DNA from: Corynebacterium hindlerae
GTDB lineage: Bacteria; Actinomycetota; Actinomycetes; Mycobacteriales; Mycobacteriaceae
Length of the DNA: 64,000 nt
Assembly: GCF_014117265.1 (NCBI RefSeq)
Contig: NZ_CP059833.1
Location: 1,395,069-1,459,068, forward strand
Reading direction: 5' to 3'
The position numbers and the translations under genes are program-made. Each line of letters starts with the position of its first letter. Position 1 is the stretch's first letter. Below, piece by piece: positions 3-64,000 of this stretch. Under the pieces are notes generated by a model that saw nothing but the letters and a program-made list of their open reading frames with translations, was not told the DNA's origin and ran no database searches.

Positions 3-824
3 GTGGACTTTTTCGGTACCTTCGATGGCGAACTCACAGACTCCGTCAATGTCCAGATTCTGTCTGGCGACGCCAACCTAGCCAACCGCGACGGGATTTT
101 GCTGGACGAAACCACCGCGAAGAAGCACCAGGTAGCCGTCGGAGATAGTATCACCGTCTTCTCCAATAACGGAGACTCCACAGACGTGCCAGTGACCGGA
201 ATTTTTAAGCCCAACGTCGCAGTGGGCAACGGAGTAATCTCCACGCAGAGTGCGCTCACCCTTGTGCCTGAGCAACAGTTGCAGCTCATCAATGTCCTCA
301 TCGATGCGAAGGCAGGCACAGACCTCGATCAGCTTCGCACAGATCTGGAAAATGCCACGGCTGATGACCTGGTCGCCGTAGTGCAGGACCATGAGGATCT
401 CAAGGGCACAGTCGGCCAGCAAATCACGGTGATGCTCAACATCCTGTACGCGCTGCTCGCACTGTCCGTGATCATCGCGGTGCTGGGCATCATGAATACC
501 CTTGCGCTGTCCGTCTCGGAGCGACGCCAGGAGATTGGCATGCTCCGCGCCGTAGGTATGCAGCGCCACCAGGTGTCTCGAATGATTCACCTCGAGGCGA
601 TCGTCATTGCCCTTTATGGCGCGGTCATCGGTTCCCTTATCGGACTCGGTCTGGGCTGGGCATTCATTAAAACCCTCTCCGAACTGGGCCTCTCCACCAT
701 TTCCGTGCCGTGGCTCCAAGTGGGCATCGTTGTTGTGGCGTCCGGCTTAGTCGGACTGGTTGCCGCCTTCCTGCCAGCGCATGGCGCTGCAAAAACTAAA
801 CCGCTGGAGGCTATTGCGGAGTAG
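3..824 (+). CDS. ABC transporter permease, FtsX/MacB type (C-terminal part)
   Basis: This is the C-terminal 273 residues of an FtsX-family ABC permease. The reading frame is open to the window edge, so the GTG at base 3 is probably internal. Residues 1-130 look like the extracytoplasmic MacB-type periplasmic-core region. Three hydrophobic segments follow at about 140-165, 190-220 and 235-262, the usual FtsX layout. Between the first two lies SERRQEIGMLRAVGM, the cytoplasmic coupling motif typical of MacB/LolC-type permeases. The partner ATPase should lie upstream, outside the window. The transported substrate cannot be told; relatives export lipoproteins, peptides or drugs, or transmit mechanical force. 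The ORF ends 25 bp before a convergent gene. Confidence 0.85.
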   Translation: MDFFGTFDGELTDSVNVQILSGDANLANRDGILLDETTAKKHQVAVGDSITVFSNNGDSTDVPVTGIFKPNVAVGNGVISTQSALTLVPEQQLQLINVLIDAKAGTDLDQLRTDLENATADDLVAVVQDHEDLKGTVGQQITVMLNILYALLALSVIIAVLGIMNTLALSVSERRQEIGMLRAVGMQRHQVSRMIHLEAIVIALYGAVIGSLIGLGLGWAFIKTLSELGLSTISVPWLQVGIVVVASGLVGLVAAFLPAHGAAKTKPLEAIAE

Positions 825-848
825 CCACAACACGAAGGCGTCTGGCCG

Positions 849-1535
849 TTACACCGTTAGAAAAAGCAGACTAATCACAGTTGCTGTAGCGAGGGTGTTA
901 TTCACGATGTGAGCGATCATCGACGCCCACAGGTTGCCGTGCCACAGGCGCAACAATCCCCACAACAGCCCGCAGGCTAGCAAGGCTGGGAACAGGGGGA
1001 AGGCTAGGTGAACCGCCATGAATATGGCAGCTGAGATACCCACAGTGAGCACCGGCCCGAACCGGGTGCCTAGCTGACGCATCAAAACGCCGCGGAACAC
1101 GATTTCTTCCAGGATCGGCGTCACGATGGTGTACGAGATGACAGCGAGGAACAACAATCCCAGTGGCACTTCGCCGGAGGTGGCAGCTTTATCTAACGAA
1201 GACTCCGGCGGGGAGGCATTGGGATCGAAGGCTTGCGTCACCAACATCTGCACAATCGGCGGGATAGCGATGACGATCGGCAACTGCCACAACAGATGCC
1301 AGAGACTTCGTTTACCCTTGCAGATTCCGATTTCCTGCCACGACACCTCACTTTTTCGGATGTGAGCGAGCACTGCCACGAGCGTAACTAACGGCGCGAT
1401 GAACAAAGTGAGGAAGAGGGCGGGAACCGCAGTGTCTGGGCTCGGATGGGCAAGTAGCACACACCCGAGTAGTAGCAGCGACGGCCCGAAGCACACCCCA
1501 ACGAGCAGTGCGAAAATCTGCAGGGTAAAGCGCAT
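849..1535 (-). CDS. CPBP family intramembrane metalloprotease
   Basis: A 228-residue, strongly hydrophobic protein of the CPBP (CAAX protease / bacteriocin-processing) family. The diagnostic motifs are visible: an EEIVFRGVLMRQ segment near residues 142-153 (EExxxR), FMAVHLAFPL (FxxxH) and a late HIVNN, which together form the membrane-embedded metal site. Members cut membrane-anchored substrates, confer bacteriocin self-immunity or only scaffold other proteins; nothing here says which. Its ATG lies 3 bases after the stop codon of the succinate-semialdehyde dehydrogenase gene, so it may be translated from the tail of the catabolic operon, though a role in that pathway is unlikely. Confidence 0.85.
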   Translation of the reverse strand: MRFTLQIFALLVGVCFGPSLLLLGCVLLAHPSPDTAVPALFLTLFIAPLVTLVAVLAHIRKSEVSWQEIGICKGKRSLWHLLWQLPIVIAIPPIVQMLVTQAFDPNASPPESSLDKAATSGEVPLGLLFLAVISYTIVTPILEEIVFRGVLMRQLGTRFGPVLTVGISAAIFMAVHLAFPLFPALLACGLLWGLLRLWHGNLWASMIAHIVNNTLATATVISLLFLTV

Positions 1536-1538
1536 GCC

Positions 1539-2996
1539 CTAACTATATGGGTTTTCAACACCGATGTATTGCAGGGAGGTGTACTCCTCGATGCCCTCAG
1601 CGGCACCTTCGCGCCCCATACCGGAGTGCTTCACACCACCGAACGGGGCGGCGGCGTTGGAGATGACGCCGGAGTTAAAGCCCATGAGCCCGAATTCGAG
1701 GCCATCGGACAGCCGGTACATTCGACTGGAGTCCTCAGTGAATACATAGGAAGCCAGCCCGTATTCGGTGTCGTTCGCTAGATCGATTGCTTCGTCTTCA
1801 GTGCTGAAGGTAATGATCGGGGCGACAGGTCCAAAGATTTCTTCGCGGATCACGCGTGCATCCTTCGGGACGTCGACAAGCACGGTCGGCTGGTAGAAGT
1901 AGCCCTCGCCCTCAACCCGCTCGCCACCGACCAGGACGCGGGCGCCGCGCTGCACCGCGTCGTCCACCAACTCCGCCACGTTATCGACGGCTGCCTGCTC
2001 CACCAGCGGGCCACACGTGACACCTTCCTCGAGACCGTTTCCGACCTTTAGCACACGGATCGCTGCGGCGAACTTCTCGGAGAATTCCTCCACGACGCTC
2101 TCATGCACAATGAAGCGGTTCGCCGCAGTGCACGCTTCACCGATATTGCGCATCTTAGCGCCCATCGCCCCCTTGACCGCCTTGTCCATATCAGCGTCCT
2201 CGAACACGATGAACGGCGCGTTTCCGCCGAGCTCCATGGACGTACGCAGCACGTTCTCCGATGCCTTGGCGAGGAGCTTTTGCCCCACCGGGGTGGAGCC
2301 GGTGAAGGACACCTTGCGCAGTCGGGAGTCCTCCATGAGCGGATTAGAGATCGCGGAAGCAGACTTACCGGATACCACGTTCAACACGCCGGCAGGCAGG
2401 CCAGCATCGAGCATGGTTTGCGCGAAGTATTGCGCGGTCAATGGGGTCAATCGAGCGGACTTCAGCACCATCGTGCATCCCGCCGCCACCGCAGGAGCGA
2501 CCTTGCGGGTTGCCATCGCCAACGGGAAGTTCCACGGGGTGATGAGAAGGCACGGCCCCACCGGCTTGCGCTTCGTAATCATCGGGAATCCAGCTTCGGG
2601 AGCAGACGTGAAGCGGCCGTAGTCTCGTACCGCCTCTTCCGCGAACCACCGCAAGTATTCCGCACCGTATTTCACTTCGCCATGGGCCTCCGCCAGGGGC
2701 TTGCCCATCTCGAGCGTCATCAGCGTTGCGAACTCCTCCGCACGCTCCGTTACCAGCTCAAAAGCACGGCGCAGAATTTCGGAACGCTCCCGGGCTGGGG
2801 TACGCGCCCAGTCCTTCTGCACGGCGCACGCGGCATCCAGGGCCTTCATTGCATCCTCGGAGCCGGCAGACTGCAATGTTGCGATAACCTCTCCAGTGGC
2901 TGGGTTTTCCACATCATAGGTTTCACCCGTAGTCGCAGTCACCCACTCACCGTTAATGAGCAGGCCAGTAGGTACTTTTGCGAGCAGATCCTTCAT
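1539..2996 (-). CDS. gabD: NAD(P)-dependent succinate-semialdehyde dehydrogenase
   Basis: A 485-residue aldehyde dehydrogenase, full length for the GabD family. The general-base glutamate lies in MELGGNAPFIV and the catalytic cysteine in GEACTAANRFIV. The N-terminal half carries the Rossmann cofactor domain (PWNFPLAMATRKVAPA). In this context the substrate is most likely succinate semialdehyde released by the HpaI aldolase, oxidised to succinate for the TCA cycle. The start codon overlaps the stop codon of hpaI by one base (TGATG), so the two genes are translationally coupled. It is the last catabolic gene of the leftward operon. Which cofactor it prefers cannot be read from sequence. Confidence 0.88.
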   Translation of the reverse strand: MKDLLAKVPTGLLINGEWVTATTGETYDVENPATGEVIATLQSAGSEDAMKALDAACAVQKDWARTPARERSEILRRAFELVTERAEEFATLMTLEMGKPLAEAHGEVKYGAEYLRWFAEEAVRDYGRFTSAPEAGFPMITKRKPVGPCLLITPWNFPLAMATRKVAPAVAAGCTMVLKSARLTPLTAQYFAQTMLDAGLPAGVLNVVSGKSASAISNPLMEDSRLRKVSFTGSTPVGQKLLAKASENVLRTSMELGGNAPFIVFEDADMDKAVKGAMGAKMRNIGEACTAANRFIVHESVVEEFSEKFAAAIRVLKVGNGLEEGVTCGPLVEQAAVDNVAELVDDAVQRGARVLVGGERVEGEGYFYQPTVLVDVPKDARVIREEIFGPVAPIITFSTEDEAIDLANDTEYGLASYVFTEDSSRMYRLSDGLEFGLMGFNSGVISNAAAPFGGVKHSGMGREGAAEGIEEYTSLQYIGVENPYS

Positions 2997-7867: not shown

Positions 7868-9371
7868 GTGTTCTATTGTTCATCACCCCGGGCACCGGGT
7901 AGGGGTTGTCCTGCAGCCAGGCGGTGAATTCTTCTTTCCACTTCCCCACTGGCGGGAATAGCCCGTCCACCGGATTGCCTTCCGCTACTCGTGCAGCAAC
8001 CCACTCATCTTCGTGTTCTTTCTTCAGCGCGGCGATTGCTACCTCTTCGGCTATCTCACGCGGAATGACAATCACTCCGTCGTCATCGCCAACAATCACG
8101 TCGCCGGGGATAACCGTGGCGTTGCCACATCCAATGGCGACATCCATTTCCCAAGGGACATGCTTGCGCCCTAGCACGGCCGGGTGGGCTACCTGACCAA
8201 ACACCGGCAGCCCGATCTCCTTGACCGCTGCGTAGTCACGGATTCCACCGTCAGTGACTACTCCTGCTGCGCCCAGGTGCTTAGCGCGTAACGCCAACAC
8301 GTCGCCGAGGGTGCCGGAGCCGGATTCGGAGCGCGCCTCAACTACCAGAACTTCTCCAGGCTTTACGGAATCAAATGCTTGCTTTTGAGCATTAAACCCG
8401 CCACCGTACTTCTTAAACAGGTCCTCGCGACCGGGAAGAAAACGCAGCGTCTTTGCTACGCCAACCATCTTGGTCCCCGGGGTCTGTGGGTGTACCCCTT
8501 CAATCACGACCTGGTTCAGGCCACGGTTGCGCAGTTGGGCAGATAGCCCGGCGGTTGGTGCGGCCATGAGCATTTCGCGCAGGCGAGCTGGAATCGCATT
8601 GGAGTCTTCCGGCAGACCTGCCTCGGCCCGAGAGCCCCACGCTTCTTCGCGTTGCTTGTCGTCAATGTACGGAAGCATGCCGAGTGCTTCATCAAAGCTT
8701 TCGGTTCCCGCCACTACCGTGGTAGTCAATTTCCCGGAGGTCGGGGCGCCTGGCGCGTTCGGGGCATCGACCTCGATTTCAACGACGTCACCAGGCTTAA
8801 TCACCGTGGAACCCGCTGGCGTACCGGTCAAAATAATGTCCCCAGGCTCTAGCGTCATATGCTGCGATAGGTCAGCCACGAACTGCGCCAACGGGAAGAT
8901 CAAATCCTCCTGGGAAGTACCGCCTTCTTGGGCCAATTCGCCATTCACCCAAGTGCGAATGCGGAGCTCTTCCGGGGTGACGGTACGGGCGTCGATAAGC
9001 TGCGGCCCAAGCGGAGTGTAGCCGTCACGGCTCTTCGAGCGAGTGTTGGAGCCTTTGTCCTGTGCGCGGTAGTCGTAAATGCCGAGGTCGTTCGAGGCGG
9101 TGACGTGGGAAACGTACGACCACGCATCAGCGAGCGGCACCCGTCGCGCTTGCTTACCGACGACCAGTGCAATTTCACCCTCGAATGCCATGAGTTCACA
9201 CCCGGCGGGGAGCACTGCTTCACCACCTGAAGCCGCGAGCGAACTGGTCGCCTTCATGAAGTACGAGGGCTGCTTAGGGCGACGGCCACGTTGCGCCGCT
9301 CTGGACTCAAAAGCCACATGTACGGCAATGATTTTTCCCGGTTTGCTCGGAAGTTGGGGGGTAGGGGACAT
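7860..9371 (-). CDS. hpaG: FAH-family isomerase/decarboxylase fused to an RraA-like domain (HpaG-like)
   Basis: A 503-residue two-domain protein. Residues 1-225 are a fumarylacetoacetate-hydrolase fold with the metal-binding pair in FEGEIALVVG, then SNDLGIYDYRAQDKG and PGDIILTGTPAGSTVIKPGD. Residues 250-480 are an RraA/HMG-aldolase-like domain with the signature GVVTDGGIRDYAAVKE. In E. coli HpaG two FAH modules carry the isomerase and decarboxylase steps; here the second module is replaced by an unrelated fold. The likely task is decarboxylation of 5-oxopent-3-ene-1,2,5-tricarboxylate, isomerisation, or both. RraA-fold enzymes are known as aldolases and decarboxylases. The ATG has a strong AGGAGAGG site and is the first gene of the leftward operon. 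Confidence 0.8.
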   Translation of the reverse strand: MSPTPQLPSKPGKIIAVHVAFESRAAQRGRRPKQPSYFMKATSSLAASGGEAVLPAGCELMAFEGEIALVVGKQARRVPLADAWSYVSHVTASNDLGIYDYRAQDKGSNTRSKSRDGYTPLGPQLIDARTVTPEELRIRTWVNGELAQEGGTSQEDLIFPLAQFVADLSQHMTLEPGDIILTGTPAGSTVIKPGDVVEIEVDAPNAPGAPTSGKLTTTVVAGTESFDEALGMLPYIDDKQREEAWGSRAEAGLPEDSNAIPARLREMLMAAPTAGLSAQLRNRGLNQVVIEGVHPQTPGTKMVGVAKTLRFLPGREDLFKKYGGGFNAQKQAFDSVKPGEVLVVEARSESGSGTLGDVLALRAKHLGAAGVVTDGGIRDYAAVKEIGLPVFGQVAHPAVLGRKHVPWEMDVAIGCGNATVIPGDVIVGDDDGVIVIPREIAEEVAIAALKKEHEDEWVAARVAEGNPVDGLFPPVGKWKEEFTAWLQDNPYPVPGVMNNRTHD

Positions 9372-23321: not shown

Positions 23322-24503
23322 ATGCTTGAACGAACACTTGTCTATGTGGACACGTCTTACCTGCTTGCAAGCTTTTACAACTCTTGGGAAACTGGGGCAC
23401 GAGCCCAATTAGAAATTGACCTTCCGGAAGTAGTTGCCGTCCTCGGCAACATGATCGAAAACCAAATTAAGCAGCCAATTCACCGCCAGTTCTGGTACGA
23501 CGGTATCCCCGACACCGGCCCGCACCGCTATCAGCGGGCACTACGCACGTGCGATGGCGTGCAACTGCGCGCTGGGCAGCTGATCGAGTGGGGCGAGCGT
23601 CGCACGCAAAAGGCCGTGGATACGCGACTCGTTGCCGATCTCGTGCTCGCTGGGGTGCGCGGAACTTGCTCTGACATCGTGCTGGTTTCTGGCGATGCCG
23701 ACATGATTCCCGGCGTCCAGGAAGCCGTCAACGCCGGCGTGCGCGTGCATCTGTACGGCTTCGGCTGGGATTCCATGTCCTCGGCGCTGCGCCACGCCTG
23801 CGATTCCACCACCATTTTGGACCCTCGGGAAGACTTCTCCGAGTGCATGCAGCTGCAGGTTCTCGAGGGCCCACTGCCTCCGGTGGTGCGCACAAAACCG
23901 ATCGGCGATGCGGAACCGATCGACGAGGACGGCACGACGAGTTTCGACGACGCCGAACCTCATTTCCCAGCGCGACCGGGGGAACCGGCCGTCGAAAAGC
24001 CCGGCGAAACAGAGGCAGACTGCCTCACCGAAGGCGAACGCAACCAGCTTGCCGACGCCAAGCCCGTCGCTCCCTCGCCGGCACTCCTCGCCCAGCAGGC
24101 CGCGAAAGCCCAGGCCGAACCCGAGTCTGATGACGAGGAGGAGACGGCGACCCGCCCAGCTCCTAACCCATCCATGATGGCGCCCCGCCGGAAGCTGCGC
24201 TCCCGCTACGTACCACTCCCCAATGAGGTGTGGGCGTCGGCAGGATTCCAAACCCCGTTTGACGTGGGACAACAGTACGCTTCCTGGTGGTATGACAACG
24301 CTGCCTCCCCAGAGCAGCGCGACTCCGCGCACCTGTTCTCCGGTGGCGGACTCCCACCCGAAATCGACCGGCCGCTGCTGCAGTTCGCCTGCGAAACGCT
24401 GCACGAATACACGCTGACTGAGTCACAGCGCGTCAATCTGCGCGACGGTTTCCACTCCGGAATCCGCGGCGTGCTCATCAACTTGAACCGGCGCGATTCC
24501 TAA
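23322..24503 (+). CDS. NYN-domain (PIN-like RNase fold) protein with acidic linker and C-terminal domain
   Basis: I start at the ATG at 23322, 3 bases after AGGAGC; the earlier ATG at 23271 has no such site. The 393-residue product opens with a NYN domain (1-165), a PIN-like fold. Conserved acidic residues are seen as Asp10 in LVYVDTSYL, Asp100 in QKAVDTRLVAD, and Asp125 and Asp127 in LVSGDADMIPG. Residues 185-300 form a charged, Pro/Ala/Glu-rich linker. The last 90 residues are a compact domain with conserved Trp residues (VWASAGFQTPFDVGQQYASW). The likely activity is RNA cleavage; the target is unknown. A bidirectional terminator separates it from pspA. Confidence 0.75.
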   Translation: MLERTLVYVDTSYLLASFYNSWETGARAQLEIDLPEVVAVLGNMIENQIKQPIHRQFWYDGIPDTGPHRYQRALRTCDGVQLRAGQLIEWGERRTQKAVDTRLVADLVLAGVRGTCSDIVLVSGDADMIPGVQEAVNAGVRVHLYGFGWDSMSSALRHACDSTTILDPREDFSECMQLQVLEGPLPPVVRTKPIGDAEPIDEDGTTSFDDAEPHFPARPGEPAVEKPGETEADCLTEGERNQLADAKPVAPSPALLAQQAAKAQAEPESDDEEETATRPAPNPSMMAPRRKLRSRYVPLPNEVWASAGFQTPFDVGQQYASWWYDNAASPEQRDSAHLFSGGGLPPEIDRPLLQFACETLHEYTLTESQRVNLRDGFHSGIRGVLINLNRRDS

Positions 24504-58681: not shown

Positions 58682-59458
58682 CTAGAGTTCATCCCCCTCT
58701 TCCATGAGTGGCGTAGGCGTAGCCCCGTAAAGTGGATCTTCTAGGTTTCTTGGCGGCTTGGAAACGCATTCCCGAACGCCGTCCACGTGTTCGTTGAGGC
58801 TATTTGAGACATTGGCCCACATAGGATCCAAAATGAAATCGATTCCAGATCGTCGAGCGTGCTTGGCTGCAGGTACAAAGTCACTGTCACCGGAAATCAT
58901 GACGATTTGGTTGACTAGACCTCGTTCCGCTAGCGATGCAATATCGAGGCCGATGCGCATGTCGACACCCTTTTGCGTGATATCCAGAGAAAAGTCCGTC
59001 TCACAGAGATCAGTAACTGAAATGTCACCTCGGCAGAGCTTCTTCAAAGGCCCGGGTTTGAGTGTGTATCCGTTCTGAGTTTCTAACTCTTCTCCGCGCC
59101 TCAACGCTACTTTTCGCTTCTTGACGATCTCTTCAAGAAATGCCGTCATCCATGCATACTCTTCCGACTTGCCCAAATTCTGCTGGCTTTGAGTTAGCGG
59201 ATGGTACAGTACTTTGTTTGAAGGAGGACAATCATAGTAAAAGATCCGATAAAGACTGCTCTCGGACTCACGGATGTGCCGCCGACAGTAAACCAAGAGT
59301 TCATCCGCCCGCTCACGCGGAGTTTTTTCTCCGAATAGTTTCTTGGCTCGCTTTCGATAGAATCCGCCATCCACCATGATGGCAGTTATGATAGGTCGCC
59401 GTGGAAAATTCGTTGCCGACCTACCTAAATGATGCTTCCCCAATTTCCACTCCCCCAT
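58682..59458 (-). CDS. NYN-domain putative RNase
   Basis: 258 residues of the LabA/DUF88 NYN class (PIN-like fold). Conserved acids are all present: Asp30 in AIMVDGGFYRKRAKK, Asp166 and Asp172 in KGVDMRIGLDIA, and Asp191 and Asp193 in MISGDSDFVPAAKHA. It would cut RNA with a divalent metal. The ATG at 59458 has no good RBS; an 18-codon leader ORF with a strong RBS lies just upstream. It is on the same strand as the Z1 helicase and 334 bp downstream, in the same low-GC block, so it may be an accessory part of that defence locus. Confidence 0.8.
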   Translation of the reverse strand: MGEWKLGKHHLGRSATNFPRRPIITAIMVDGGFYRKRAKKLFGEKTPRERADELLVYCRRHIRESESSLYRIFYYDCPPSNKVLYHPLTQSQQNLGKSEEYAWMTAFLEEIVKKRKVALRRGEELETQNGYTLKPGPLKKLCRGDISVTDLCETDFSLDITQKGVDMRIGLDIASLAERGLVNQIVMISGDSDFVPAAKHARRSGIDFILDPMWANVSNSLNEHVDGVRECVSKPPRNLEDPLYGATPTPLMEEGDEL

Positions 59459-59477
59459 AGAGTTTGAGCCCAGTCAT
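59421..59477 (-). CDS. Possible leader peptide overlapping the NYN gene start
   Basis: ATG at 59477 preceded by AAGGAGAGTGCCG, the best RBS in this gap. It reads 18 codons (MTGLKLYGGVEIGEASFR) and stops inside the NYN gene, out of frame with it. It may serve translational coupling. The alternative is a sequencing or evolutionary frameshift at the start of the NYN gene. Confidence 0.3.
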   Translation of the reverse strand: MTGLKLYGGVEIGEASFR

Positions 59478-59792
59478 CGGCACTCTCCTTATAGGTGGAG
59501 GGTCAACGGCTGGACTACGTGAGCTTATCCTAACACTGAGTGCAACTCAGATGCCAACCGCTAAGCCTCTCAAAAATGCCGTTAACCCCGCCGAGCTTTC
59601 TCTGTCCGCCAAAGCCGTCTATTGAACCTTCTGCAAGTGGGCGTTCTAGATTACCGAGGTTTCCACACCGGATGTTGCACCACATGCTGAGCGAATAGGC
59701 TCCACGGCAAGCGCTTGCGAACAATCTCCCGAGCAGCGCCGCTGGTCTGTTTCTCGGAGAACCAACACATTTCAAATGATTCAAGAGGTTCT
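59459..59792. other. Gap between the Z1 and NYN genes
   Basis: 334 bp on the minus-strand axis of the defence block. A Cys/Gly-rich 84-codon frame (59530-59784, TTG start directly after the Z1 stop) is open, but it resembles no family and has poor codon character. No terminator hairpin is evident, so read-through from the Z1 gene into the NYN gene is possible. Confidence 0.5.
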
Positions 59793-62700
59793 CTAGCCGT
59801 CGTCAGTTTCGGTTGCATCGACTATGACATCATCCTTCTCCGATTCGACTCGGACGCCCCACTTGACCGGGCCGGCAGATTTCAGAGCTTCGAATGGAGT
59901 GCTTAGGACAAACTGTATTCCGATGTGTTCGGAACCCCGCTTTCCTGCTTTCTTCCAAACTTCCGAAAACGGCTCCACTTTTCGCGCATCTTTGTCGCGT
60001 TCATCGAAGAAGTAAATCAAAAGTCCGGCAAGCTTCCGCGAAGGTTCCAGAGGCACAGGTAGCTGACGATAGGCATCAAACTTGCCAGCAAGTCGTGGCT
60101 GAAATTCTTTGAGCTCAGCCAATTCTTCTTTGCGAGGAACCCTTAGATCACAGCCCATCGAAATAGATGTCAATGCATAGACATGCTTACGGTCAGCGCC
60201 GGCAATATCATGACGTTCGCCCTTCTTCTTTCCACGGCGCATACGACTGACTACAGGAACAGGAAATTGGATTCCATCGACATCAATGAGTGATTCGGTC
60301 CCCTGTTTACCTGGGATTGGCATCATGACAATGACGTCATCCAGCTCGCCCTTTTCGATCAGATCTTGAACATAGCAAAGTCGCGGAATGACATTCACCT
60401 GGAAATACTCTGCACGCGGTTCGTCGACGCTTGTGTCCCCATAGAACTGGACTCCGCTGGAGAAGTATTCCAGGAACTCGTTTCCACTGATTCTTGCCAG
60501 CCTGACATTGAAGTAGTCTGCGGAGATTATTGGCTTGCCACCAGTCAGTTGACCTTCACGACGGTAGTAGGCGACCTTATGCTCCTCACCCATGCGCTCG
60601 AGCAAGAATCTGCCAAAGTGCTCGAAGTTGTCCCGCCTTGCTCCCGGATTCGTAGTGGCACCATTGAATTCCTTCGCGATTGGTGAAGAAGCCATCGACT
60701 TCACATAAGCGTTAAACATCTTGTTGCGCGCTGTTGGCAAGAGCCCTGGAAGAGTTTGCTGAACAAGCGGCGCCAACTGAGCTGGGGTGATGACCGGCCG
60801 TCCGTCATCGTGCAAATCTGCGTAGTAGGCGACCTCTTCGCGGAATTGTTCCTCGTCACGCATCGAGGCTTCGAACATCTCAACCAGACTTGGTGGTGCG
60901 TAAAGTCGCACCAGGTCTTGGTATCCCTTACGGAAACCGAACCAACGTCCGGTTTGCATGAGTGTATCGGCGGTACCAGCTTTGCGACGGAAATAGCTGA
61001 CTGTCAGACCTTCCACCGTGTACCCGCGTGACAACTTCGCGCCACCGACCAGGATTTTCCACACCTTGCCACGTTCGAAGTCAGCTTCCTCGCCACCTTC
61101 GGAATCTACCTGCAAAATTGGAACCTGCTTGTCCATTGGCAAGTCGCCAATGATCTCATTAACAGCTTCAGAAATATAAGGAATGAGCTCGTCAAAAGAT
61201 CCCGGAACTGGGTTGCCGCCAACATACTCCGGGACTTGCAGGACTGGGTAAACGTCTTTCTCGTACAGCGACCGCAAGTGTTCAGTAGCAGCGCCGATGG
61301 CATACCCTCGCTTATTCCATATGTCACTGAGCATCTCTACGGAAGCGCCATGGTGCTCGTTCTTTACAGATTCGTGGACAAGCATTGTGTGATGTTTGAA
61401 CCGGAGGTTCGGATCTCGCGCCTCACGGAACTTCTTGATCGCACCAGTGAGGACGAACATGTCCAGAGCGGTTTCAAACTCCTCCAGCTTTAAGTCTTGG
61501 AAGTAGTCAGTTCCTTCTTCCTCTGCGATACCCGGCTCTGCGAGATCACGAACAAACGCAAGACTGTTGGATTGCTCAAGTGTCGGATTGTCATCGGCCG
61601 AAAACTTCCACCGATCATGGAACCAATCTGCTCCACGATAAGGTTTCGGCTTTGCAAGCATGAGCACGAAGTCCTTTGGATAAAGATCCTCAGGATCTTC
61701 AGGGTTGATGAAGACGTTGGCAAACGGAGTCGCAGTGTAACCGACGTATTGAGCCCGGGGAAGGTTGCGAAGCAGCGCCACAACCTCCCGGTTCACCGCA
61801 GTTCGCTCGGTTTCCTTCTCGGGATTCTTGTTTTTCGAAGTGTTGACTGATGCTTGGTCAGACTCATCGTCGATGATTAGCGCCGGAAGTTTCTGTAGGT
61901 TACGGTTGCTGGACAGCCGCCCAAGCTGTGTATTCAACTTTTGAAGAACTCGAGAATTCTTCTTCACCACCGCGACATAGCACGGCGTCCGCATCAGTCT
62001 TTCTTCGGTGAGGAAGTTATCATCGATGTCATCGCCAAGTTCAATGTTGGCTGTACCAGTTTTAGCAACATCAAAATCTGCCGCAGAGCTGGTCAATCGT
62101 TTAATTCGAGGATATCCGTGGATCTTACCTGGCCGATCACCGTGGCTGAGGAAGAGACCGTTATCCCAATCCGGATCACCGGAGAAATAAGTCTCTGCCT
62201 TAAGTTCTGGCCCAGCCAACTGACTGATATCACGGCCATCCAGGACGGCCTCAGTGCCGAATAATTCCAAATCCAAGCGTCTCTGAGTTTGATTACGCAA
62301 GTTATCTAGCGTGCCCGCCAAAACGATAATCATCCGATATCCGGCATCGATCGCTTTAGCCATCACAGCAGTGAAATTGGCGGTTTTTCCTGATTGCACA
62401 TAACCGACCACTAGCCCCCGGCGCGGGTGTGTGCCCGGGTTGAGTGGATCCTCGAGGCGACGGATCACATCGATGGCCTGCTGGTTAACACTCGCAATAG
62501 CGTCAGCTGTCCAACCATTCTTCTGCAACACCCCTCGGTAGGCTTTCCAGTAGTAAGGGTGTTGCTTCTGTCGCTCTGGGGTGTACCAATCGTAGAATTC
62601 TTCGTCAACGATTACTGGCTTGGACAATCCATTTACTATCCGGGAGAACTTCTCGGTGAATTCGCTGATCCCCAGCTCAGAAAACACAAAACTTAGCCGC

Positions 62701-62963
62701 TCCGTTGAATTCGGAGCGGTTTCGGTAGCCGGATAGAGGGTTTCTGGAGCGGCCTCCAGCATCGTGTACAGATGCTCAAGGAAGTTCGCGAGTTGCGCAT
62801 CATTGGCCTCGGAAAAATACTCGCGCAGAAGATCCTCAGCGTAACCGACCTGAGGCACGTTGACCTGCAAACGCTGGAGCAGCGGCATCGCGATTACTAG
62901 GGGATTTCCAAAGTAGAAGCCAATGTCGCTGTTCAAACGGTTGTAAAGATCGTCATTGGACAT
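59793..62963 (-). CDS. Z1-domain superfamily II helicase/ATPase of a restriction-type defence system
   Basis: 1056 residues. Helicase motifs: Walker A GYVQSGKTANF at 187-197, Walker B LIIDDESDQAS near 367, a TATPFAN motif (III-like), GGAKLSRGYTVEGLT near 640 and the arginine-finger motif QTGRWFGFRKGYQDL near 672. This combination with YTATPFANVFINPED defines the Z1 domain. The C-terminal 300 residues form a separate, less conserved domain. Z1 proteins occur in operons with a MutL/MORC-like GHKL ATPase, a PD-(D/E)XK nuclease and a cytosine methylase. It starts 3 bp after the DUF4420 gene stop. Base composition is visibly lower in GC than the flanking core genes. Confidence 0.9.
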   Translation of the reverse strand: MSNDDLYNRLNSDIGFYFGNPLVIAMPLLQRLQVNVPQVGYAEDLLREYFSEANDAQLANFLEHLYTMLEAAPETLYPATETAPNSTERLSFVFSELGISEFTEKFSRIVNGLSKPVIVDEEFYDWYTPERQKQHPYYWKAYRGVLQKNGWTADAIASVNQQAIDVIRRLEDPLNPGTHPRRGLVVGYVQSGKTANFTAVMAKAIDAGYRMIIVLAGTLDNLRNQTQRRLDLELFGTEAVLDGRDISQLAGPELKAETYFSGDPDWDNGLFLSHGDRPGKIHGYPRIKRLTSSAADFDVAKTGTANIELGDDIDDNFLTEERLMRTPCYVAVVKKNSRVLQKLNTQLGRLSSNRNLQKLPALIIDDESDQASVNTSKNKNPEKETERTAVNREVVALLRNLPRAQYVGYTATPFANVFINPEDPEDLYPKDFVLMLAKPKPYRGADWFHDRWKFSADDNPTLEQSNSLAFVRDLAEPGIAEEEGTDYFQDLKLEEFETALDMFVLTGAIKKFREARDPNLRFKHHTMLVHESVKNEHHGASVEMLSDIWNKRGYAIGAATEHLRSLYEKDVYPVLQVPEYVGGNPVPGSFDELIPYISEAVNEIIGDLPMDKQVPILQVDSEGGEEADFERGKVWKILVGGAKLSRGYTVEGLTVSYFRRKAGTADTLMQTGRWFGFRKGYQDLVRLYAPPSLVEMFEASMRDEEQFREEVAYYADLHDDGRPVITPAQLAPLVQQTLPGLLPTARNKMFNAYVKSMASSPIAKEFNGATTNPGARRDNFEHFGRFLLERMGEEHKVAYYRREGQLTGGKPIISADYFNVRLARISGNEFLEYFSSGVQFYGDTSVDEPRAEYFQVNVIPRLCYVQDLIEKGELDDVIVMMPIPGKQGTESLIDVDGIQFPVPVVSRMRRGKKKGERHDIAGADRKHVYALTSISMGCDLRVPRKEELAELKEFQPRLAGKFDAYRQLPVPLEPSRKLAGLLIYFFDERDKDARKVEPFSEVWKKAGKRGSEHIGIQFVLSTPFEALKSAGPVKWGVRVESEKDDVIVDATETDDG

Positions 62964-62966
62964 GGC

Positions 62967-63989
62967 TTAACCTTTCGTCTCTTCGAAATAGCTTCCCACT
63001 GCGGAACCCAATTCAGGGAGACCGCCTAGGGAAATGCGGTAAGAAATGTTGCTAATACGTTCATCGAAGTCTCCGCTGAGCCGCGGGAAATTCGTGTCAA
63101 CGTTGTAAAAGGCAATAGGTGTACGCAGCAACCAACGAGTTGTGTAAAGGTGTTGATTTTCAGCGATGATGCCAACCCGAGCGAGCTTGGTCTCCAGTAA
63201 TTCCGCCGCATGGGCGTCGTGAAGCTGCGAGCGGAGCCCGTCAATTGCCTCCATGAGGGTCTCGCCCCCTTCGGCGGTTTTTGTTACCTGGAGGGACGCG
63301 AAGAGTAAGTTTTTGCCCAGAGTTGCTTGCAGTTGTGATAACGAGGAGATTATGTGAGATCGTTCTTCACTAGAAGTTGTTTTCACTTCAATATCGCAGG
63401 TAGCGAAGGTAAAGTCGTGTTCTTCTGCGAGTGGCCCCAGCCATGCAGCGACGGCTTCGTCGACGGTTTTGAGCCCACTGCGGACAAGGTGACGGAGAAC
63501 CATAACCTCACCTAGCAGGCCAATTTCAGTTGCCTGGGAAACCATTTTGAAGCCTTGCAGCAATTCACGAAAGCCTGAGACGGAGTCTCGAATTGCGACC
63601 ACAGGGGAGACTCCGTATTGCTGGATCAGCGTGGCGATGTTGCGGAGGAAGTAATAAGGCGCGGTGAGATTGGATCCGTCAACGAGAACTTCGACGATCG
63701 CTTTCTCGGCGTCATCGAAGCGCTCTTCCTTGCGCAATCGGAGATTCCTCAGATCGCCGATGCCGGTCTGGTCTTTTTCAAAGTCGAAGCCGCTAGCTTC
63801 GACGCGTAAACCAAGGTAACGCTCACGAGGATTGATAATGAGACTGACGTCAGTTCCCTGTTGCAAGGAGATATCGGTCAATTCGCCGGTTGCCCAGCGG
63901 TTCTCAATCCAGGAAATCGGCAAATATTTCTGCCCAAGACCGGCTGTCATCGGTCCGGTAACGGCGCCTTCGCGGTGTTCCAGGCTCAT
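62967..63989 (-). CDS. PD-(D/E)XK motif protein (DUF4420), restriction nuclease of the Z1 system
   Basis: 340 residues. The nuclease core is EIGLLGEVMVLRHL (Glu161), EEHDFTF (Asp192) and DIEVKTTSSEER (Glu201, Lys203), the E...D-ExK pattern of the DUF4420 family. GAGAGCGTCG at the window edge provides an RBS for the ATG at 63989, so the gene is complete. It would be the DNA-cutting subunit working with the Z1 helicase encoded 3 bp downstream. Other members of the set (GHKL ATPase, methylase, AIPR protein) are expected upstream, outside the window. Confidence 0.88.
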   Translation of the reverse strand: MSLEHREGAVTGPMTAGLGQKYLPISWIENRWATGELTDISLQQGTDVSLIINPRERYLGLRVEASGFDFEKDQTGIGDLRNLRLRKEERFDDAEKAIVEVLVDGSNLTAPYYFLRNIATLIQQYGVSPVVAIRDSVSGFRELLQGFKMVSQATEIGLLGEVMVLRHLVRSGLKTVDEAVAAWLGPLAEEHDFTFATCDIEVKTTSSEERSHIISSLSQLQATLGKNLLFASLQVTKTAEGGETLMEAIDGLRSQLHDAHAAELLETKLARVGIIAENQHLYTTRWLLRTPIAFYNVDTNFPRLSGDFDERISNISYRISLGGLPELGSAVGSYFEETKG

Positions 63990-64000
63990 CGACGCTCTCC

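Follow-up and report, generated by a model that had tools for sequence, protein, structure and literature searches.

Gene content of the locus

We analysed a stretch of 64,000 nucleotides (nt) of Corynebacterium hindlerae (contig NZ_CP059833.1, positions 1,395,069 to 1,459,068 of the forward strand), hereafter the window, to which coordinates refer unless another sequence is named. Near its right end lies a gene for a NYN-domain nuclease, directly preceded by a structured RNA and a promoter-like site, and it is this RNA-NYN pair that is described here.

58682..59443, minus strand: NYN nuclease gene of the phrog_5783 family (Pfam PF01936; phrog_5783, 3.6e-81; conserved acidic residues)
59467..59516, minus strand: structured RNA directly upstream of NYN (covariation in Corynebacterium; match to model R1 at 59462-59521, 73 bits)
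59527..59557, minus strand: sigma-70-like promoter candidate, with TTGGCA (59557-59552), a long spacer of 19 nt and TAGGAT (59532-59527)

By inference, the NYN gene probably starts at TTG 59443; the longest open reading frame (ORF) begins at ATG 59458. An initial annotation of the window had noted a NYN-domain protein with acidic catalytic residues, which was borne out: the product scored 32.8 bits against PF01936 (gathering cut-off 24.2), with no other Pfam family listed, and D30, D166, D172, D191 and D193, which we take to be catalytic, were invariant in an alignment of 29 NYN proteins. No relative of solved structure was found by sequence at E ≤ 0.1. Judging from its sequence, the product is probably an RNA-cutting enzyme. 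Most of the scanned NYN proteins (26 of the 29 in alignment A7) also matched the PADLOC candidate HEC-09, with a best E of 3e-6. Most genomes of the genus also encode another, larger NYN-like protein (at about 23601-23807 of the window; G000:C1:1418669), which was a source of weak NYN matches.

A structured RNA upstream of the NYN gene

The structured RNA directly upstream of NYN is a new element. It was found by DNA comparison around 15 Corynebacterium NYN copies, as a block of about 40-45 bp just 5' of the gene. Most of the other copies shared 87-96% identity with that of the window over this block, whereas the NYN coding part was only 65-75% identical. The RNA, of about 55 nt, is composed of a closing stem (P1), an invariant middle helix and a CCUCC/GGAG hairpin, and a hairpin loop like ACYAUAA was common to many copies.

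The fold was supported by covariation: in 13 Corynebacterium copies, two near-identical ones being left out, 98.6% of the 208 cells paired and six pairs were changed on both sides. When the partner was slid by 1-3 columns as a control, at most 58% remained paired. RNAalifold gave the same fold, and the window copy, which is one of the rows of model R1, folded at -21.1 kcal/mol (z -3.1). In nine of the 15 Corynebacterium NYN genes the frame was broken by a frameshift, a stop or a truncation, with the RNA left intact; the RNAs of these nine scored 62-80 bits, most of them being rows of the model.

The promoter candidate of the window ends 5 nt before the start of the RNA model, and its score was not reached by any of 200 shuffles. 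Across the Corynebacterium RNA loci, 5-8 nt separate the end of a promoter-like hexamer pair from the beginning of the model; at 17 of 24 loci, including five of the nine clear RNA copies lacking NYN that are described below, at most 5% of shuffles scored as high. Searches of Rfam with six Corynebacterium loci and with L002, the sequence that includes the right flank of the window, gave no match of this kind. At one of these loci, L006, a weak, sub-threshold sX4 match starts in the neighbouring tRNA gene and runs across the RNA stretch.

Occurrence in phages, plasmids and other bacteria

NYN is a phage gene. Relatives were encoded by 116 viral contigs, the best 80 of which form our set of viral loci, and were also present in 15 phage records and 166 plasmid records. 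The window protein matches both phrog_5783, a family of phage proteins, and the NYN/LabA-like nucleases of PF01936; the PHROGs entry for phrog_5783 gives neither a function nor an RNA partner. In 31 of the 80 viral loci, neighbouring genes were examined: 15 of them had an integrase-like family within four ORFs after NYN (11 of them directly after it), and a regulator-like family with 17 members lay on the upstream side (both named by eye). The order regulator, NYN, integrase is seen in Streptococcus phage Javan85, and both ev099 (an E. coli phage) and Brookers (a Proteus phage) carry a LexA-type regulator ahead of NYN. Moraxella phage Mcat4 differs in having a terminase gene before NYN. On plasmids, a Campylobacter relative lies behind a SNF2-type gene, and a Thermus relative is flanked by a helicase and an N-6 methylase, beside brxL.

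The RNA precedes NYN in 66 of the 80 viral loci, and in 25 of the 39 that were held out of the model. An exact RNA-core pattern matched seven viral contigs, five of which, all already in the set, carry NYN right behind it; the other two, L279 and L283, are new and lack NYN. Eight named NYN records were also tested for the RNA, and four gave strong matches at the right place: Dorea (45.3 bits), Streptococcus (57.8), Lactococcus (46.4) and Moraxella (32.1). The Streptococcus sequence also occurs unchanged as a row of the model, and that of Lactococcus is almost the same as a row, so the independent matches are those from Dorea and Moraxella. Together with the Corynebacterium copies, the named records place the RNA in Actinomycetota, Bacillota and Pseudomonadota, with two further phyla as candidates. 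The Thermus stretch upstream of the NYN relative folds with a z of -5.8. In the viral locus L212, a second, strong RNA copy was observed at 8958-9013 (+), downstream of NYN and before an integrase-like gene.

RNA copies without a NYN gene and the link to TEG147

Among 201 related genomes, the RNA was found in 26, all within the genus: 15 with NYN and 11 without. Two of the latter were marginal; the other nine scored 32-76 bits, with 95.8% of 144 cells paired and 12 double-change cells. Searched by profile, in most cases over roughly 1.5 kb to either side, the surroundings of these nine yielded no NYN remnant. L267, which shares its site with L038 and L040, has kept the RNA, followed by an interval of similar length holding no recognisable NYN. 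At L271, the NYN-less RNA (1501-1561) stands directly before a gene with a SocA/Panacea domain, which is of antitoxin type (ORF 824-1567(-); Pfam, 4e-10); this gene may be a chance neighbour or a second RNA partner.

The RNA upstream of NYN in the viral locus L193 matched the Staphylococcus aureus family TEG147 (Rfam RF03535) at 58.3 bits, above the gathering score of 56.1. In contrast, the window copy gave no match to this family at E up to 1, nor did the other Corynebacterium copies searched. Teg147 is listed, at 60 nt, among the bona fide small RNAs (sRNAs) of S. aureus HG003 (PMC5826253) and is said to be expressed from a genomic island (PMC3053349), and the Rfam family originated in a course (PMC7779021). 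The portions of these three papers available to us make no mention of NYN.

Comparison with type III toxin-antitoxin systems

The RNA-NYN unit has the look of a toxin or defence module under RNA control, of a kind not yet described. We lean slightly towards a phage-spread module in which the structured RNA and the NYN nuclease would work like a type III toxin-antitoxin pair. The RNA gene lies 5' of the nuclease gene in the same orientation, as in ToxIN, AbiQ, CptIN and TenpIN, where a terminator separates the RNA gene from that of the toxin RNase (PMC12373285, in the sections available). In those systems the RNA is repeated in tandem and the toxin is ToxN-like, whereas here we found a single RNA motif and Pfam gives a NYN-domain protein rather than one of the ToxN/AbiQ family. 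A second likeness is to the type III-like AbiF/RCd22 of a Clostridioides difficile prophage (RF03085), likewise prophage-borne, in which promoter, structured RNA, terminator and toxin gene follow one another (same sections of PMC12373285). It differs in having an Abi_2/AbiF protein and two abiF motifs in RCd22, in place of NYN and one different hairpin, and none of the Rfam matches reported for the loci we searched was to RF03085.

More broadly, we regard as evenly balanced the proposal of a widespread, undescribed class in which an RNA of about 55-60 nt would restrain NYN in a type III-like manner. Temperate phages, plasmids and defence islands would spread it across phyla, and derivatives reduced to the RNA, including Teg147, would be retained as antidotes that shield cells or phages against NYN modules arriving from outside.

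Several observations weigh against a type III-like module. No tandem-repeat RNA antitoxin of the kind usual in type III systems was found, each aligned element carrying a single copy of the motif, and P2 was paired in only 79.5% of viral cells. Termination is doubtful in Corynebacterium because the U-run after P1 is only weak there. No model match was obtained in 14 of the 80 viral loci, one of which (L242) holds no upstream DNA. Among the named records, the right-place matches of Campylobacter, at E 0.008, and of Thermus, at E 0.034, were weak, and little better than, or inferior to, off-site matches from the same search (E 0.013 and 0.024), and E. coli ev099 and Proteus Brookers gave no significant RNA match at the right place. 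The broken NYN frames represent fewer than nine events, because two pairs sit at shared sites, and may stem from assembly errors. The NYN-less RNAs scored below the NYN-bearing copies, which are largely in the model, and may be relics. As to Teg147, the available part of PMC5826253 places it in a group of sRNAs whose expression differed slightly and which another study did not annotate as sRNAs.

The foremost alternative, which we consider possible but rather unlikely, is that the RNA acts solely in cis, as a leader of NYN (an attenuator or sensor that might, for instance, terminate transcription conditionally at P1), and that the nuclease has no RNA partner. Its position in the 5' leader, the U-run that follows P1 in many phage copies and the typing of TEG147 as Cis-reg by Rfam are consistent with this, and one RNA does both jobs in the AbiF system, according to the sections available (PMC12373285). 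The nine Corynebacterium and two viral copies without NYN argue otherwise, since the former keep the fold, five of them with the promoter-like site, and Teg147 has been reported to be an sRNA in its own right (PMC5826253, part available). It is less probable still that NYN works as a ribonucleoprotein with the RNA as a functional component, directing cleavage as a guide or scaffold rather than inhibiting it; the frequent co-occurrence of RNA and NYN in viral loci and the recurrent ACYAUAA-like loop would fit, but no variable guide-like segment was seen in the alignments and the RNA persists in genomes without NYN.

The findings link Teg147/RF03535, whose function is not stated in the available parts of the literature, with phrog_5783, a phage protein family with no assigned function, and with a recurrent prophage position in one testable unit. 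If the RNA does restrain NYN, RNA-controlled toxin-antitoxins would be enlarged by one new family of proteins and one of RNAs, and the RNA-only copies would be candidate antidotes.

The adjoining restriction genes

Upstream of the RNA-NYN pair, on the same strand, lie the following genes:

59793..62963, minus strand: SFII helicase gene (Pfam PF10593, 5e-51; PADLOC MzaC, 2e-65)
62967..63989, minus strand: gene for a DUF4420 PD-(D/E)XK nuclease, MzaD-like, of the restriction operon (Pfam PF14390, 5e-42; PADLOC MzaD, 2e-19)
63904..64000, minus strand: 3' end of a GHKL ATPase gene, MzaB-like (Pfam HATPase_c_3, 1e-21; PADLOC MzaB, 6e-27)

The GHKL ATPase gene runs past the window to about 65619 (L002 6972-8687). 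Beyond the window, upstream on the same strand, it is followed by a DUF3800 gene, by two overlapping frames that together encode a type ISP restriction-modification enzyme, and by a HipA-like gene, and then by other genes. A GHKL ATPase, an SFII helicase with the DThhQXuRhFG motif and a restriction endonuclease (RE)-fold nuclease thus stand in one operon, the combination that defines MORC/paraMORC operons in the available text of Iyer et al. 2008 (PMC2292703).

The initial annotation was correct in assigning the helicase/DUF4420 pair to a GHKL-type restriction system. It had expected further defence genes to the right, of which the GHKL ATPase and the type ISP enzyme were found; the nine proteins that we scanned on that side did not include an AIPR protein. 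MzaABCDE systems include AIPR. The present cluster differs from them in this respect, in its upstream type ISP enzyme and DUF3800 gene, and in scores far below the NCBIfam equivalog cut-offs (MzaB 98.3 against 850, MzaC 277.9 against 1500 and MzaD 98.3 against 420 bits).

These Mza/MORC-like genes are ordinary DNA-restriction genes, neighbours of the RNA-NYN module and not part of it. That NYN belongs to the adjoining operon is highly improbable, even though it is adjacent on the same strand and the Thermus plasmid context indicates that NYN-type genes can join defence operons. The initial annotation, whose observations were partly confirmed and whose interpretation was partly supported, had proposed NYN as an effector of the restriction core; we read it instead as a passenger, an unrelated mobile unit recurring in phages and in the chromosomes of bacteria that are only distantly related, which corrects the reading of the window.

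The type ISP gene splits into two frames exactly at a run of 11 G in its methylase part (L002 11718-11728, C11 on the plus strand and G11 in the gene; outside the window, at about window position 68650). In five relatives the frame is unbroken and the run is not present at that place, and the genome has only seven sites with runs of at least 8 G. The gene looks like a phase-variable (contingency) gene, although the split may be a sequencing error. The longest G run of the genome, of 13 G (G000:C1:1663483-1663495; L083 1499-1511), is found some 40 bases upstream of the longest ORF in a large gene that appears, by eye, to encode a surface protein, making this a second candidate locus for phase variation.
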